NCBI GenBank assembly: GCA_903923395.1
Contig: CAIXXM010000092.1
Span: 1 to 64,000, forward strand
Reading direction: 5' to 3'
Origin: an uncultured Acidobacteriia bacterium
GTDB lineage: Bacteria; Acidobacteriota; Terriglobia; Bryobacterales; Bryobacteraceae
DNA: 64,000 nucleotides
Below the pieces are notes generated by a model. That model was not told the origin of the DNA and did no database searches. It saw only the letters and a program-made list of their open reading frames with translations. This document shows positions 20,768 to 27,942 of this stretch, one piece after another. Every line of letters begins with the position of its first letter. Positions within the stretch are counted from its first letter, which is position 1. The translations under genes were made by a program, and so were the position numbers.

Positions 20768-23758
20768 TTACTGGTCATAGCTGTGGAAATACCGCTGCTT
20801 CACCGCAGCCTTCTCCCCCGGCTCACCAAACCAGCCTTTGAGCAGCGCGGGCCAGTCGTCTGACAGCGGCAGCAGGGTGAACTTGCCGCTGATGTTTTTC
20901 CGGCTCTTGCTCTTGCCACCTTCGGCTTCATCGTCCGCACCAGCATCACCGGAGAGGCTGGAGAACACCGTATTCCCTTCCCGGTAGTCCAGTGAGACGG
21001 TCATCCCGCGCCCGGCCATCAAAACTCCCGCGCCTGCAGGATTGGTGAGCAGCGCCAGTTCCACACCGCGCCGGTTGCCGGGGAAGTATTGGTCTTCGCG
21101 GTTCATGTGGAACAATCCATAACCATCGAGCAGATCCCGTCCGGGATAGCTGGCGTACGGCCCCTGCCCGAGCCAGCGGAATTCAGATGCCGCCGCGGGT
21201 AATTCGAGAGCATAACCAGTTTCCAGAAATGTCCCTGTGGTTTTGCCCGGTGCATAGCGGTAATTGACTTCAATCGCCCCGGAGGGCCGCACCAGCAGGC
21301 GGGCTTCGCCGTCCACAAACTCCTCTGGAAAGCCGGGCCGCAGATAAGTGCCACTTACCGTGACTAACACGCCCTCTGGCGTCTCCACCGCTCCAGTCTT
21401 CACATTGGAAGCACCCGTAACCAGCTCACCCCGCCAGTATTTGCGTTCGCCATCCCGCTGCTTGCCAAGTTCATTGATGGTAAGCACCCTGCCTGTGTGG
21501 GGACCAATTGCGGAGACAAGAGTGTTACCCCGCGAATCGACCAATACGCACTGTCCCGTTCGCCGGTCGAGACGCAGTTGATAACTTCCCTGCTGCACGG
21601 AAATATTGGAATCGGAAATCTCAAGAGCCGGTTTTCTGGACGCCATGGCAGATAACAGAGCTTCCCAGCGCCGGCCGGCGGGCTGCGTTTCCAACTGGAG
21701 CGAATGCTCATAAAACTGCCAGCCTGCCTCATCCACGCAGCGGAGTTCCAGGGCAAACACGTCATTGCCCAACTCACCCGGCAGCACCAATTCGAGAGGA
21801 ACTGTCTCCGCACCATGCGGCCCCGCAACGGGAGTAATCACGCCTTGGGCGATGCCCCTTCTATTCTTCGTCAGCGACCAATGGAGTTTCACTCCAGCCA
21901 GCGTGCGGAAATCAAAGCGGTTCTCCACATGGAGTAACACCGTCTGCGCGCCCGGCTTGACCGGCAGGGACTTCTCCAGCACCTGCACTGGTGAGTAGAC
22001 TTTGCGCAATTGCCAGTAATCGGTCTGCGGAGTCCGGTCTGAGTAAACAATGCCGTCGACCGCGTAGTAACCATTGGTGTCGAAGTAACGGTGCTCATCG
22101 AGCCACACCATCAGATCCGCATTCTCCACACTTTTGCGGTCCGCAGTGGTGCGCAGAATCCCCTGGTCTTGAAACATCCACACAGCGCCGCCTGCCACGC
22201 GCGGAGAATGATACATAGCGTCCCAAATCTCTTGCACACCTCCGCCGCTGCGGGCCAGGCCGCGTTCATGGGCATACTCCGTCACCACGATGGGGCGGGT
22301 CAGGGTTTCCGCATATTCCCGGATCGTCTTCGCGCTGGGATAGTGCGGCGAGTATAAGTCCGCGAAGGCCGGGAACTCCTGGTAATGATCTTTGAAGTAT
22401 GAACCTATCGTCGGAAAAGTAATGGGCCGCGAGGGATCAAGTTCCTTCACGAAACGTCCTGCATTCAGGCCTGACTGGTTGATGGGGTTTTCATTGCCCA
22501 CACTCCACAACAAGATCGATGGGTGGTTCTTATCACGCGTCACCGTGGCACGCGCCCTCGTCAGCAGAACATCTTGATAATCGGGGTTCTGCAGATTCTT
22601 CCGGCCATGGATGAACGGCACCTCATCATCCACGTAGATCCCCATTTCATCGCAGAGTTCCAGAAAGCGGGGATGCGGCGGATAGTGCGAGGTCCGGATG
22701 AAGTTGATGTTAGCCGCGCGGATGAGTTCCAAATCACGCCGGATCAATGCCTCCGTGGCAACACGCCCTTCAGCGGGCCACATATCGTGGTGATCAATGC
22801 CACGCAGTTTTACAGGCTTGCCATTCAGCAGCAGTACGCCCTCCTGCACAGTGACCTGGCGCAAACCGATTCGATCCTGAAAGTGCTGCAATCTCTTACC
22901 CCCGGCTTCGAGGTCCAGTTCCATGCGGTAGAGCGATGGCGTCTCTGCCGTCCAGAGGCGCGGTTCGCGGATGACGACGCGCGCGGAGCCGCGGCCCTGC
23001 CCATCCATTGCAATCCGGAAATTGCCCGCCGCTTTGCCATCCGGGCCGACAAGTTTCCCCGCCACCGTGCCTACTCCCGTAGCCGTAACATCGAGATCCA
23101 ATTGTGCCGTTCCATCACTGTTGAGGACGGTGCGCGCCGTGAAGTCACGAAGATGCATCTCCGGGAGTGCGAAGAGGGTTACATCACGGAAGATTCCAGA
23201 AAGCCCCCAGCAATCCATCGTGTCGAAATCCCAGCCCTTGCTGCGTGTCGTCACCCGGACTGCCAGCACATTTTCCGCCGCGCCAGGCAGCAGGGCCTCC
23301 GTGATATCGAAGGTGACCGGATGAAAGCTGCTGGCCCACTCGCCCACCGGCTTCCCGTTCACATAGACCGACATTCCGAACAGCACGCCGTCAAAGCGCA
23401 GGAAAACCCGCTTGCCACGCCAGGTTTCCGCAGGACGGAATGTCCGGCGGTACAGGCCCAAACCCGGGTCTGTATCCGACGCGTAACGGGGTGGAGCAAA
23501 GCCATGCAGCTCCCAGTGCCCAGGCACCGGCATGGTCTTCCAATCCGCCACACGGAAAGAAGGCTGGACGAAAGCTTCGTCCGCGCTGGCATCGAGGCCC
23601 GCCACATAGCGGAAACTCCAATCCCCATTGAGCGAAACCGCGCCTTCTTCCGGCTTGACGCGCAGCACCTCCTGCGGGCCGGACGCGCCCCAAACGCTCC
23701 ACACAAGAGTGAAGCCCAGAAACAAAACCCTTGCCCAGCCGCGCGACATCTCTTTCAT
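20768..23758 (-). CDS. Exported GH2 beta-galactosidase
   Basis: This 996-residue glycoside hydrolase family 2 enzyme has a signal peptide, an N-terminal jelly-roll sugar-binding domain (about 45-200), an immunoglobulin-like domain, a TIM barrel (about 315-600) and a C-terminal Bgal_small domain with FRWLGQGPYASYPGRD. The acid/base Glu is at about 423 in SVGNEN and the nucleophile Glu at about 494 in VVTEYAH. The HHDMWPAEGR segment is typical of LacZ-like enzymes. ATG 23758 shares a base with the upstream stop (TGATG); GTG 23761 is an alternative. It ends 1 bp from the convergent regulator gene. The precise sugar specificity is inferred. Confidence 0.88.
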   Translation of the reverse strand: MKEMSRGWARVLFLGFTLVWSVWGASGPQEVLRVKPEEGAVSLNGDWSFRYVAGLDASADEAFVQPSFRVADWKTMPVPGHWELHGFAPPRYASDTDPGLGLYRRTFRPAETWRGKRVFLRFDGVLFGMSVYVNGKPVGEWASSFHPVTFDITEALLPGAAENVLAVRVTTRSKGWDFDTMDCWGLSGIFRDVTLFALPEMHLRDFTARTVLNSDGTAQLDLDVTATGVGTVAGKLVGPDGKAAGNFRIAMDGQGRGSARVVIREPRLWTAETPSLYRMELDLEAGGKRLQHFQDRIGLRQVTVQEGVLLLNGKPVKLRGIDHHDMWPAEGRVATEALIRRDLELIRAANINFIRTSHYPPHPRFLELCDEMGIYVDDEVPFIHGRKNLQNPDYQDVLLTRARATVTRDKNHPSILLWSVGNENPINQSGLNAGRFVKELDPSRPITFPTIGSYFKDHYQEFPAFADLYSPHYPSAKTIREYAETLTRPIVVTEYAHERGLARSGGGVQEIWDAMYHSPRVAGGAVWMFQDQGILRTTADRKSVENADLMVWLDEHRYFDTNGYYAVDGIVYSDRTPQTDYWQLRKVYSPVQVLEKSLPVKPGAQTVLLHVENRFDFRTLAGVKLHWSLTKNRRGIAQGVITPVAGPHGAETVPLELVLPGELGNDVFALELRCVDEAGWQFYEHSLQLETQPAGRRWEALLSAMASRKPALEISDSNISVQQGSYQLRLDRRTGQCVLVDSRGNTLVSAIGPHTGRVLTINELGKQRDGERKYWRGELVTGASNVKTGAVETPEGVLVTVSGTYLRPGFPEEFVDGEARLLVRPSGAIEVNYRYAPGKTTGTFLETGYALELPAAASEFRWLGQGPYASYPGRDLLDGYGLFHMNREDQYFPGNRRGVELALLTNPAGAGVLMAGRGMTVSLDYREGNTVFSSLSGDAGADDEAEGGKSKSRKNISGKFTLLPLSDDWPALLKGWFGEPGEKAAVKQRYFHSYDQ

Positions 23759-24627
23759 CACCGCCCCAGAAACTCCTCGACCACCCGGATATATTTCTCC
23801 GGCTCTTCGTAATACGGCAAGTGGCCGCTCTTCTCAAAGACCTCCCACTTCGCACCGGGAATCGCCTTATAGATCTTCCACGCCGTGAGCGGTGCCACAT
23901 TCATGTCATATCTGCCAGTTATCACCAGCGTTGGGCATGTGAACTTACTCAAGGCGGGCTTCAAATCGAGCTTGGTTGTCGCCCGCCGGACCGCGGCACC
24001 CACACCCGGAGCCAACCCCAGATCCTTCGCGCCAGCCAAATACTTTGCAGCCTTTTCCTCGTCGTAGAAGATCAACTGGAAATGATGCCGCAGCCCTTCT
24101 TCGGGGTCCGCGTTCTTCTGCTGCGCCTCCAGTTTGTCCGGGAACACTTGCGGGAACAGATGCACCTGATCACCCCAGGCCGGTGCCGCTGAATCCGAGA
24201 GAATCAGCCGCCGCACATGTTCCGGATGCGCCGCCGTATAGGCCATCGCCAGCACGCCGCCGTAGGAATCCCCCAGAACATCTATCTTGTCGAAATGCAG
24301 ATGGGCGCGCACGGCATCGAGATCCTCCACCTGCGCTTCCATCGTCTGCGGCACATTGTTATCCGTCACTTTGGACGCGCCCGTACCGCGCTGGTCATAA
24401 AAGATCACCGGACGTGTGCGCGATACCTTCGGCCAAACGTCATTCTGCAGCATATAAACGTGGGACAACCCAGGGCCGCCATTCACCGCGAAAAGCGGGG
24501 TGGCTGAGCCGGGCTGACCCAGCATCCAATACGCAATGGACACTTCCGGCGTGCGGACGAAACCCGTTGGCGCGTCTTGCCCGGCGGCAAGCGCGGAAAA
24601 TAGAACCGGCAGCAGGAGAAACCTCAT
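23758..24627 (-). CDS. Exported alpha/beta hydrolase (proline iminopeptidase family)
   Basis: The 289-residue protein has a signal peptide ending near residue 16 and the S33 peptidase pattern: oxyanion NGGPG at about 50, DQRGTG at about 79, nucleophile Ser in GDSYGG, Asp in TGRYDMNVAP and His in SGHLPYYE. It is likely a periplasmic aminopeptidase or an acyl/ester hydrolase. The gene is followed directly by the GH2 gene (TGATG), forming a two-gene secreted-hydrolase operon, and lies just downstream of a methyltransferase pseudogene. Confidence 0.85.
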   Translation of the reverse strand: MRFLLLPVLFSALAAGQDAPTGFVRTPEVSIAYWMLGQPGSATPLFAVNGGPGLSHVYMLQNDVWPKVSRTRPVIFYDQRGTGASKVTDNNVPQTMEAQVEDLDAVRAHLHFDKIDVLGDSYGGVLAMAYTAAHPEHVRRLILSDSAAPAWGDQVHLFPQVFPDKLEAQQKNADPEEGLRHHFQLIFYDEEKAAKYLAGAKDLGLAPGVGAAVRRATTKLDLKPALSKFTCPTLVITGRYDMNVAPLTAWKIYKAIPGAKWEVFEKSGHLPYYEEPEKYIRVVEEFLGR

Positions 24628-24636
24628 TCCCCAATG

Positions 24637-25329
24637 TTAAAGCTGCACGGTCACCCGGAGAAATGTCGAAGTGATGGAAAAGCCGCCACTATCCAAAGTA
24701 TTTGCCGCCGCAGCCAGGTCCAGAAGCAGCTGATGCAGTTCTTCCACCTTGCCGTTCTGCGCGGCAGCGGCGTAGGCGTTCATCGTCACATTGGCCTCCA
24801 CCACGCAGCCCATGGGACTCACAAAACCCTCCGGTGGTGGCGGCGTATACGCGGAACTGATCCGCAGCAGCTGGGAAACAAAGGAAGTGGGGTCATTCGG
24901 AATCCAGTTCCCCATCACAATCCTCTTCAGAAACCACCTCACAACGGACGTCTTCGGTCCGCCAGAACGCTGCGGTCTCTGGTCTGGATTTGCCAGCTGC
25001 CCTCGCGCCTTTGCGGCTTTCGCCTGGCTTGGTCACACGTACCATCTCACGGGCCACATCGAAAGGTTTCGGCGCAAACATGGCCCCCAAAGATGGAAAT
25101 GGTGAGGTCAAACGTATGGTCCGGCACGCCTTGCAGATCACAGGCATCGCCTTCCGGGAACAGAAGATTGGCGAGACCAAACTCCGCGGCGCGCCGGTTT
25201 CCAGCAGCCATCAGGTTGGCAGCGATGTCAACCCCGGTGACATCCGCACCCAACTTCGCCGGCTTCCCGCATGGTTGAAGCCACAACGGTAAAGTCGCCC
25301 TTTTCCCACAACGCTTTGTTTGGATTCAT
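24637..25329 (-). pseudogene. Decayed SAM-dependent methyltransferase
   Basis: Pieces of one class I methyltransferase appear in order in three frames. The intact start (MNPNKALWEKGDF, ATG 25329, AGGAGG site) runs to about 25270. The next piece, with LGADVTGVDIAANL, joins without the expected glycine-rich SAM-binding motif, so about 25-30 codons are deleted. A +1 error in a G5 run (25084-25088) shifts the frame at IFG/AMFAPKPFDVAREMVRV. About 95 extra bases (about 24928-25022) interrupt VTKPG and RIVMGNWIPNDP. A further internal deletion follows GFVSPM before TMNAYAAAAQNGK. Without motif I it cannot be functional. Its start is translationally coupled (TGATG) to the upstream gene. Confidence 0.85.
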
Positions 25330-27014
25330 CATTCCTCCTGAGAGTGTTCCGACGCAAACTTGCCCCACTTCGCTGAAAGTTCCGGGTCGCCCTTGACGCC
25401 TGCGACACCGCGGTAAGCCATCGACAAACTCTGTGCCGCCAGCACGTTTCCAGCCTCCGCGGCTTTGGTCCACCACTTGACTGCTTCGGGATAGTTCTGT
25501 TGTGTTCCCTTCGAGACCGCGTACATCATGGCAACCATCGCCTGCGCCGGCACATAACCCAGCTCCGCGGCTTTCAAGGTTGCCGCAAAGGCCTGCGCCG
25601 GGTCCTTCGCGACCAGTTCCCCGCCCTTGCAGTAAAGCTCCACGGCCTCACCGGTGTCCTTCCCGCAGGCGCGATAGCCATAGCGGTAATCTTCCGCCTT
25701 CGCCGTCATCGTTTCCACCCATTTCGGCCAACCGCCCGGGGGCGTCTTCTGCTCTGGCCGACCCAGGTCACCGCGATAGCCCGCATCCTTCACCGGTGCC
25801 AGTAGATTCGCCGTCATCGTGCGGATTTCCTCGTTCTTATCAGTCAACAGAGTCACCAGGGTGGCGAACAGAGCTGCATCCTGCCGCGCGCCCTGCATCT
25901 GGTAGCGAACCGCATACGCAATCCCGTCCACGGCAGCAATGCGGTCGTCATCGGAAGCACCATGCAGTGCCACCTCGACCAGTGCCTTCTGCGCGGCAGC
26001 GGAACGCCAGTTGGCATTCGCGGCAAGCGCACGGAACACCGCACGGCGCACCTTCGGGGAGGCATCGGTCACCTTCTTCGCCAGCGCATCCATGGTTGCC
26101 TCACTGAAGATGGCATGGCTGCAGGTCTCCGCGGCAGCCGCGCGGACATTGGCATCGGGCGAATCGAGCAACTTTTGCACGGCCTGCCCGGCCACCGCAC
26201 CACCCACCAGCGCCAGATTGCCGAAATATCCGGCAGCATTGACCACGGGCTTCAACAGCAGCGCCTTCTCTTCCGGCGAAAGCGGCAGCGTTTTGTTGCG
26301 CAGCTTGGTCGCCCACTCCAGTGCGTCAACATTACTTGGCGGATGGTAAGTGCGCGCACCAAGGTCCGCGAACTCGCGGTAGATCACGTGGTAGCCCTTG
26401 GCGTTCATTCTCTGGTAGGCATCGCGCACGGTGGTCAGATGGTAAGACAGATCCCGCAGCCCCAATACGATGTAAAATTCCGGCGCGGACTTCTCAAAAT
26501 CCAGCGCCTGGTTCAACTCCACAGGCATGCGCCACATGCCCCAGCTATAACTAATGCCGGCGGTCACCAGATCGGGATGCAGCATGCTGAACTCCCCGGA
26601 AATCTTGCCACCCTCGCCCTTGCCATACATATAAACGCGGCGCGGATTCACGGGATACGTCTTCTTCGCCCAAGCCAACAATTGGCTCAACGGTTCATCA
26701 TCTGCAGCGTTCCACTTCTGCCCCTGCGGATGGCCCGCCAGCAGGATGTACTGGTCACTCAGCCCCAGCCGTTGCAAGGCTTCCCAGACCGGCAGAATCT
26801 CATCGCCCGTGGGACGGTCATGTTCCGCTGAACAAAGGATGAGCCCAACCTGTTTCGCGGGATCTTTCGTCCCCGCCGGTGCCAGGTTCTCAGGCACTTC
26901 CACAACATATTTCAGGATCGTTTTCCCTGTGGCATCTTTGAGTTCCTGTTCCACGGCAGCGTGCAACGAACAGGCCAGCAGGGTCAAGAGCGGTAAGAAG
27001 AGGCGGATTCTCAT
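25329..27014 (-). CDS. Secreted esterase-like protein with HEAT and Sel1 repeats (nucleophile absent)
   Basis: The 561-residue protein has a signal peptide (MRIRLFLPLLTLLACSLHA), then an alpha/beta-hydrolase domain resembling feruloyl-esterase/PHB-depolymerase-like proteins (about 45-260). The nucleophile elbow, expected as G-x-S-x-G-G, reads GKGEGG in VYMYGKGEGGKISGEF, so the catalytic Ser is replaced. HEAT-like helical repeats follow (about 285-430), then a Sel1/TPR region at the C-terminus (AMVAMMYAVSKGTQQNYPEAVKWW region, about 490-555). ATG 27014 is the start next to the signal peptide. It probably binds rather than cleaves a ligand. The function is unknown. Confidence 0.75.
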   Translation of the reverse strand: MRIRLFLPLLTLLACSLHAAVEQELKDATGKTILKYVVEVPENLAPAGTKDPAKQVGLILCSAEHDRPTGDEILPVWEALQRLGLSDQYILLAGHPQGQKWNAADDEPLSQLLAWAKKTYPVNPRRVYMYGKGEGGKISGEFSMLHPDLVTAGISYSWGMWRMPVELNQALDFEKSAPEFYIVLGLRDLSYHLTTVRDAYQRMNAKGYHVIYREFADLGARTYHPPSNVDALEWATKLRNKTLPLSPEEKALLLKPVVNAAGYFGNLALVGGAVAGQAVQKLLDSPDANVRAAAAETCSHAIFSEATMDALAKKVTDASPKVRRAVFRALAANANWRSAAAQKALVEVALHGASDDDRIAAVDGIAYAVRYQMQGARQDAALFATLVTLLTDKNEEIRTMTANLLAPVKDAGYRGDLGRPEQKTPPGGWPKWVETMTAKAEDYRYGYRACGKDTGEAVELYCKGGELVAKDPAQAFAATLKAAELGYVPAQAMVAMMYAVSKGTQQNYPEAVKWWTKAAEAGNVLAAQSLSMAYRGVAGVKGDPELSAKWGKFASEHSQEE

Positions 27015-27060
27015 GTTGGCCCTGCCACTATATAACGCCGGAAGTGTTATAAGTCGGGGT

Positions 27061-27942
27061 GTGCTGTGTCTTCTTCTCTTTTTCCCGCTTCTCTGCGCCG
27101 CCTTCCAGCCGGACGCGGCCATGCTGCGCAAACTCTTTGAGGACAACGTCGCACGCTGCGGAAAAGAATTTGGCGCGGATGACCCTCGCACCGCGCAAGC
27201 CGCGCGCGACCTGGGCTTTTTTCTTAAAAATGCAGGCAACAACCAGGCTGCCGCCGCCGCTTTCCAAAGAGCACTGCAAATTGATGAGAAGAATCTCGGC
27301 CCCCACGCCCCGAAGACACTGGCCGGCGTGATCACTCTTGCCTCCGTCTCGCCGCCGCGCGAAGCCGAAGTGCTCTTCCGCAAAGCCCTCACGTCCCCCG
27401 GCATGAACTCCGCGCTGGCCGCGCCCGCACTCGCCGCCCTGGGGGACCTTCGCTTCCAGGCAAAAGACCCCGCCGGGGCCGCAGCCGCCTGGCGCTTCGC
27501 CTTGCAGCACGCAGAACTCGCACAGGGGAAAGAATCAGACGCCGTCGCGAAGATTCTGAACAGTCTCTCTCAAGTCACCGAACCCAACGAGTCCGTACTG
27601 CTTCTGGAACGCGCCCGTGACATCGCCCAAAAGAACTTCGGCCCGAACCATCCAGAGACCGCGACCTGTGAAATCAACCTCGCCAATGCCCTGCTCAAGG
27701 TCGGCCGGACCGCCGGCGCAGCACAACACGCCCAGACCGGACTCACCGCCTTCGAAGCCTCTCTCGGCCCCCGGCACCCGCGTGTTTCCATCGCACTGAC
27801 CACCCTGGCGCGCGCGCAGGCAGAGAAAAAGTCCGCGGCGGCACTTTACCGGCGAGCCGTTGAGATTGACCGGCAGTCGCTGGGCGAAAAAGATCCCCAA
27901 ACGCTGGCCGATACCCTCGCACTCAAGGCTTTGTTGCCGTAA
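27061..27942 (+). CDS. Exported TPR-repeat protein
   Basis: The 293-residue product has a signal peptide (about 1-17) and several TPR units of the kinesin-light-chain type, with spaced motifs such as LGPHAPKTLAGV, FGPNHPETATCEINLANALLKVGR and LGPRHPRVSIALTTLARAQ. Such proteins act as protein-protein scaffolds; no enzymatic domain is seen. GTG 27061 is chosen since it begins the signal peptide; an ATG at 27013 would add 16 residues and overlap the divergent start. The 3' end overlaps the convergent multihaem cytochrome by 20 bp. Confidence 0.7.
   Translation: MLCLLLFFPLLCAAFQPDAAMLRKLFEDNVARCGKEFGADDPRTAQAARDLGFFLKNAGNNQAAAAAFQRALQIDEKNLGPHAPKTLAGVITLASVSPPREAEVLFRKALTSPGMNSALAAPALAALGDLRFQAKDPAGAAAAWRFALQHAELAQGKESDAVAKILNSLSQVTEPNESVLLLERARDIAQKNFGPNHPETATCEINLANALLKVGRTAGAAQHAQTGLTAFEASLGPRHPRVSIALTTLARAQAEKKSAAALYRRAVEIDRQSLGEKDPQTLADTLALKALLP

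Follow-up and report, generated by a model that had tools for sequence, protein, structure and literature searches.

The closest described systems are the REP elements of the GTAG and CGTC super-families, which, in the part of the published account drawn on here (PMC3733652), are 20-40 bp long, are tagged with GTAG or CGTC at one of their ends and stand beside one another mainly as head-to-head dimers, head-to-tail neighbours being absent or rare. The same portion of that account presents them as short, non-coding, palindromic and dispersed, with a species-specific sequence, lying between genes and often behind them with occasional copies inside genes (PMC3733652), and in these respects the repeat reported below resembles them; it also lists the Rickettsia palindromic elements (RPE) as CGTC-tagged. 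A second system is that of Solibacter usitatus, where about 600 structures flank class 3 Y1 (HUH) genes according to the excerpted text of PMC6006769; an acidobacterial host, atypical secondary structures and a high copy number are common to these structures and to our repeat. Structure-guided single-strand transposition is known for IS200/IS605 and is proposed there for REPs (PMC6006769, in excerpt).

The locus studied here lies in a 64,000-nucleotide stretch (the window) of the 78,686-base contig CAIXXM010000092.1 of an uncultured Bryobacteraceae bacterium, whose draft genome (G000) comprises 6,152,153 bases on 169 contigs and is 98.46% complete. A first, sequence-only reading had described a methyltransferase gene with several independent lesions, namely the loss of SAM motif I, a +1 slip in a G5 run, about 95 extra bases at about 24928-25022 and the loss of a further internal block. 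All four are borne out by alignment with eight relatives, lengths being counted against the named record L010 (a Terriglobia metagenome assembly): the 89-nt deletion, the extra G and the 94-nt insertion each shift the frame, and the 129-nt deletion of 43 codons keeps it (Table 1). The insertion spans 24922-25015 by alignment, and the covariance model extends it to 25020. The start, the ribosome site and the coupling to the upstream gene were likewise correctly read as kept, the ATG at 25329-25327 overlapping the upstream TGA (25331-25329) by one base, with a second in-frame ATG at 25332-25330. That coupling is present here but is not common to nine other genomes, in which stretches of 3.5 to 16 kb around the methyltransferase gave no match (E ≤ 1e-5) to four neighbouring window genes.

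Table 1. Features of the methyltransferase relic, its neighbours and the inserted repeat copy, in window coordinates.
Feature	Position	Strand	Basis
Methyltransferase relic, start to stop codon	24637..25329	minus	Methyltransf_25 match of middle block and alignment with eight relatives
AGGAGG ribosome site before the ATG	25334..25339	minus	read from sequence
Upstream gene, HEAT and Sel1 repeats; stop overlaps relic start	25329..27404	minus	domains from 25329-27215
Downstream alpha/beta hydrolase gene	23758..24627	minus	
Junction of 89-nt deletion, SAM motif I gone	25253..25254	minus	eight-relative alignment, counted against L010
G5 run, one base longer than in relatives	25084..25088	minus	eight-relative alignment, counted against L010
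Junction of 129-nt in-frame deletion	24787..24788	minus	eight-relative alignment, counted against L010
Inserted repeat copy, 94 nt by alignment	24922..25020	minus	covariance-model match, 46.3 bits, E 4.4e-11
Helix 1, 5' arm, window copy	25010..25016	minus	model alignment
Helix 1, 3' arm, window copy	24937..24943	minus	model alignment
Loop stretch CAGAGACC, complements tail (one G.T)	24974..24981	minus	read from sequence
Tail stretch GGTTTCTG, complements loop	24928..24935	minus	read from sequence

The remaining codons are still recognisable, as the earlier reading had it: a 79-residue middle block lies in one frame and matches Methyltransf_25 at 3.4e-07, above the family cut-off, and other pieces of the relic flank it on both sides in different frames. 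Likeness to the class I SAM methyltransferases (Methyltransf_25/11) resides in this block and in L010, which also matches it yet scores below the cut-off of each of the 25 NCBIfam models shown; the difference is that motif I is gone from the relic. At E ≤ 1e-8 the block has relatives in eight of the 60 other genomes searched, and no second copy was found in the bacterium's own genome at E ≤ 0.001; the match to a second named record, L011, is weak, and orthology there is improbable. The insertion is absent from all eight aligned relatives (L007, a near copy of L006, being left out of the alignment), and six of the eight are full length in a single frame. The other two are imperfect. L002 carries one additional base in its motif I region and shows no start in the alignment; L005 (G021:C273) itself lacks much of the block removed by the relic's 129-nt deletion, and since L005 stays in frame without it, this C-terminal block may be dispensable. 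With its 89-nt deletion and three frame shifts the relic has no motif I in one open frame, and it is clear that the gene has lost its function and is a pseudogene.

Its decay had also been called recent, for which the support is loose. Measured against each relative, the relic has a pN/pS of 0.19-0.35, inside the range among the relatives themselves (0.17-0.35), but this is a weak measure, and Ka/Ks is uninformative on the relic because synonymous sites are saturated. Against recency, the 103 positions that do not vary among the relatives include 10 changed in the relic, one of them bordering the insertion and possibly an alignment effect; each relative taken in turn shows 0 to 8 changes at 105 to 113 such positions. 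The age of the loss is thus loosely bounded. A dead methyltransferase gene is by itself ordinary, and what matters more is the source of the insertion, which proves to be one copy of a dispersed structured repeat.

Used as a query, the insert found 43 other places in its own genome at E ≤ 10, and the consensus found 47, the window copy included, at E ≤ 0.01; these copies have two conserved blocks flanking a variable middle (L037 was left out of the first profile, which matches the inserted copy over 24925-25019). A covariance model, R1, built on 34 copies detects a single copy in the window and none in the rest of the contig (L103). Given 66 sources, the model returned 83 matches, 48 of them from the own genome, where 39 reach 91 nt or more. 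The main form measures about 94 nt, and two compact forms, of 43 and 54 nt, were also matched in own loci. The copies nearest to the window insert are 84-86% identical to it, and its source had probably already diverged. Several further forms were noted in passing. Copies that more closely resemble the form of other genera also occur in the own genome (L262 469-567, L084 4074-4172 and L189 1501-1599), and at L091 2980-3077 (G000:C141) two units of a compact form, with helix 1 and almost no loop, lie about 50 nt apart. On the short contig of L075 (G000:C58), two HTH_37 genes of equal length (823-1137 and 2425-2739) each lie downstream of a repeat copy. A weaker match (43.9 bits) at L231 889-984 in G005 has other sequences in both helix 1 arms (GCTCGGG and CCCGAGC) and a helix 2 arm of 15 nt, and is perhaps a sister family.

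The genome surveys (100, 398, 200 and 396 genomes) retained the best 2 to 20 candidates per genome; copy numbers drawn from them are minimum counts and absences are provisional. A consensus search of 100 other relatives gave no match at E ≤ 1e-4 among the best candidates listed per genome, and the repeat at first seemed species-specific. A wider search overturned this view, with matches in at least four of 398 other genomes: two genomes of another genus gave right-end matches at loci of the same layout, in which the arms differ but are mutually complementary, and the matches in the remaining two are 22 to 36 nt long. When a copy from that other genus served as the query, at least 30 of 200 family genomes matched, and with the covariance model at least 70 of the 200 and at least 25 of 76 genera did so at E ≤ 0.001 (own genome included in both counts), several genomes holding at least 20 scored copies. 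Across the phylum, the own genome alone matched (1 of 396 at E ≤ 1e-4, among the candidates listed). Restriction of the repeat to one taxonomic family is likely, and we do not call it proved because the phylum search used strict filters and the best ten candidates per genome and its sample of 396 has few genomes of the same family. The repeat consensus was not found in plasmids and phages, nor an exact 19-mer of it in viral contigs, and neither the window stretch nor 14 loci matched any Rfam covariance model at E ≤ 1. No published description of the repeat was found in Rfam or in the portions consulted of the REP and Y1 literature, including PMC3733652, PMC6006769 and PMC5900883. We refrain from calling the repeat categorically new chiefly because of the Solibacter structures, the nearest published hint, which are known here by description from the excerpted PMC6006769.

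The unit opens with a YARAAG-like end, a helix 1 arm (GCGCACA), a helix 2 arm and a loop containing GAGGAACwCGC, and continues with the second helix 2 arm, GCGAGTCCGT, the second helix 1 arm (TGTGCGC) and the tail GTTCCTCARAAG. Arm sequences vary between species, and helices 1 and 2 are kept by two-sided changes. In a sequence-only alignment (A2), the arms of a copy pair better with each other than with swapped arms for helix 2 (-22.5 against -18.9 kcal/mol; 0 of 20000 permutations) and helix 1 (-12.6 against -10.4 kcal/mol; 0 of 20000), and the same comparison for helix 3, in which the loop would pair with the tail, gave -15.5 against -13.8 (1 of 20000). An alignment-free measure agrees, the mean longest perfect arm complement being 7.08 nt compared with 5.44 for swapped arms and a maximum of 5.67 over 200 shuffles; an arm pair of at least 8 nt is present in 42 of 126 copies, in 18 different sequences, several of which are mutual variants. 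Two-sided cells number 198 against 107.6 shuffled in 83 copies, in a model-fitted alignment biased to structure, and 81 against 32.7 in 53 copies, also model-fitted and partly overlapping the training copies. All these statistics overstate independence because the copies are related, and the stronger argument for the fold is its recurrence across genera with different arms. Helix 2 is paired in 57.8% (83 copies) and 73.7% (53 copies) of cells, part of it being unpaired because arm registers differ between subfamilies. The existence of helix 3 is only suggestive, and column counts give no clear signal for it.

The own genome alone does not display this covariation: among its copies no two-sided change was seen in 20 pairs (37 copies), and RNAalifold returned no two-sided pairs. 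Single copies fold no better than shuffles (z of -1.26 for the consensus and +0.65 for the window copy, both folded as DNA). In the window copy two of the seven helix 1 pairs are broken, and the loop-tail pairing is intact over eight positions, with an A-T in place of a G-C of copy L025.

Placement relied on a home-made, crude gene caller, which placed 58 copies or clusters, 43 of them in gaps between called genes and 15 within genes, with 10 further ones at edges left unplaced; 22 of the 43 intergenic copies lie within 20 bp of the 3' end of a gene. Convergent junctions are more frequent among gaps with the repeat (16 of 43) than among others (31 of 197; p 0.002), an enrichment for which the own genome is chiefly responsible (8 of 19 against 8 of 61) and which is absent in G005 (2 of 12 against 17 of 79). 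The repeat is thus dispersed, non-coding and mainly intergenic, and palindromic with conserved pairing, as REP elements are. It departs from them in length, the main form measuring about 94 nt, not 20-40 bp, and in its ends, a YARAAG-like sequence standing at the left flank and at the right end of most of 51 copies examined in place of a GTAG or CGTC tag (another 32 of the 83 copies, whose ends did not conform, were left out). It departs from them also in orientation: neighbours within 3 kb are on the same strand, hence head-to-tail and not head-to-head, in 37 of 38 pairs, a count that includes tandem units and, through overlapping loci, a few pairs twice. Head-to-tail arrays with a 93-nt step occur in several genera (e.g. 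G279:C19 and G453:C89). The repeat therefore works in a REP-like way but misses the described REP size (in its main form), tag and orientation. The RPE share with it the entry of short palindromic elements into coding sequences. They often lie in frame in working genes, whereas the insert here causes a frame shift in a dead gene and lacks a CGTC end. As to the CnGA foot of the class 3 Y1 structures (PMC6006769, in excerpt), some ends of the repeat read CAGA and fit, but others read CAAA and do not.

A REP would be expected beside its own transposase, the RAYT criterion being flanking by the same repeat, and we surveyed 21 Y1 transposase loci in five genomes. Only one, L044, has a variant copy of the repeat, and another hairpin also lies behind the gene. 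This gene, of REP-type and from the own genome (G000:C20:28475), scores 81.9 bits against NF047646 (cut-off 80); the variant copy (L044 1166-1252; 24.0 bits, E 3.7e-05) lies before it, 135 bp ahead of its first ATG (1387), with arms that are different but fully paired, and the motif occurs at this locus with one mismatch. Two more copies of the variant are present in own loci. The flanks of the other 20 loci gave no repeat match at E ≤ 0.3, wider stretches around five Y1 genes added nothing strong, and five known Y1 proteins used as queries had no match in 68 context stretches. The L044 transposase has the motif YIDNNP, which is of the class 2 and not the class 3 kind according to the excerpt of PMC6006769, and the class 3 motif is absent from the Y1 proteins printed. 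Behind the same transposase the hairpin GCACGTCAGGATGACGTGC is repeated eight times with at most two mismatches (L263 8823-9613; G000:C20, about 28.8-29.6 kb); it is absent from the other own loci checked; this hairpin is possibly that transposase's own REP and a better candidate than the 94-nt repeat. The connection of the 94-nt repeat with the L044 transposase is accordingly a lead, not a result.

Taken together, we consider it probable that the gene is a pseudogene whose 94 extra nucleotides are a copy of a lineage-wide, non-autonomous, REP-like mobile repeat recognised by its structure, its movement being deduced from presence and absence among sequences. Several other explanations bear on parts of this reading. 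That some or all lesions are errors of a draft assembly is very hard to credit, although the extra base of the homopolymer may be one. The genome is in 169 contigs, some of which end in repeat copies, but the site lies well inside one contig with alignable gene sequence on either side of every lesion, and the 98.46% complete genome holds no other match to the methyltransferase block. The repeat might instead be a structured RNA (a 3' UTR stabiliser, a terminator or a small RNA) with a selected RNA fold, spread by ordinary duplication, as its conserved helices and the copies just behind genes would suggest. G.T and A.C mismatches are, however, about equal on the modelled strand (11 and 10 in helix 1, 51 and 53 in helix 3, a few copies being in both alignments), and because an RNA should tolerate G.U more, DNA is favoured; on these small numbers the evidence leans to a fold that acts as DNA. 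Orientation to the neighbouring gene is also mixed, Rfam has no match, and one copy sits in a dead gene, antisense-independent, which leaves the RNA explanation improbable.

The balance of mismatches would equally fit an origin of the two-sided changes in template switching or gene conversion between hairpin arms, with no selection on the fold, and template switching between arms is a known mechanism in quasi-palindromes. Yet a layout with conserved unpaired stretches outside the arms has been kept over 25 genera and needs some constraint, and we regard arm conversion as unlikely while giving it some weight. The length of about 94 nt, the lack of coding capacity and the helix 1 arms, which form short inverted repeats near the ends, would also suit a MITE, the kind of short element that derives from a DNA transposon and is mobilised by a DDE transposase acting on its terminal inverted repeats. 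In the present repeat, however, the arms are not terminal (about 4 nt inside on the left and about 13 nt on the right), their sequence varies from species to species, and comparison copy by copy showed no target duplication, left and right ends being alike only in type; a MITE is therefore quite improbable. Integron attC sites and a coding repeat were set aside by eye.

For the mobile, structure-recognised repeat that we prefer, we propose that an enzyme would recognise the folded strand or cruciform, cut beside the YARAAG-like sequence at both ends and move or copy the unit; the head-to-tail arrays with their 93-nt step would result if fresh copies inserted at the ends of existing ones. Such a structure-guided single-strand mechanism would explain the ends, the arrays and the compensated arms. 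Our preferred candidate, a guess, would be a REP-associated HUH (Y1) endonuclease acting in trans. In the methyltransferase gene, the insertion may either have killed the gene or have been tolerated in one already dead. The fuller proposal, that this is an undescribed, three-helix, possibly pseudoknotted DNA element of about 94 nt, belonging to one family and recognised by its fold, with insertion at YARAAG-like sites, head-to-tail arrays and arms compensated alongside a REP-type enzyme in trans, is put forward tentatively.

Short structured repeats occupy many bacterial genomes and their spread is rarely visible; in the methyltransferase relic, one copy can be set against a defined empty site in relatives. 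The persistence of the fold across at least 25 genera while its letters change makes it possible to ask which enzyme follows the fold, and the repeat also lets one ask whether its arrays have grown by insertion or by duplication. The insertion in this one dead gene thus opens onto a widespread, structured and probably mobile repeat that is worth a survey.
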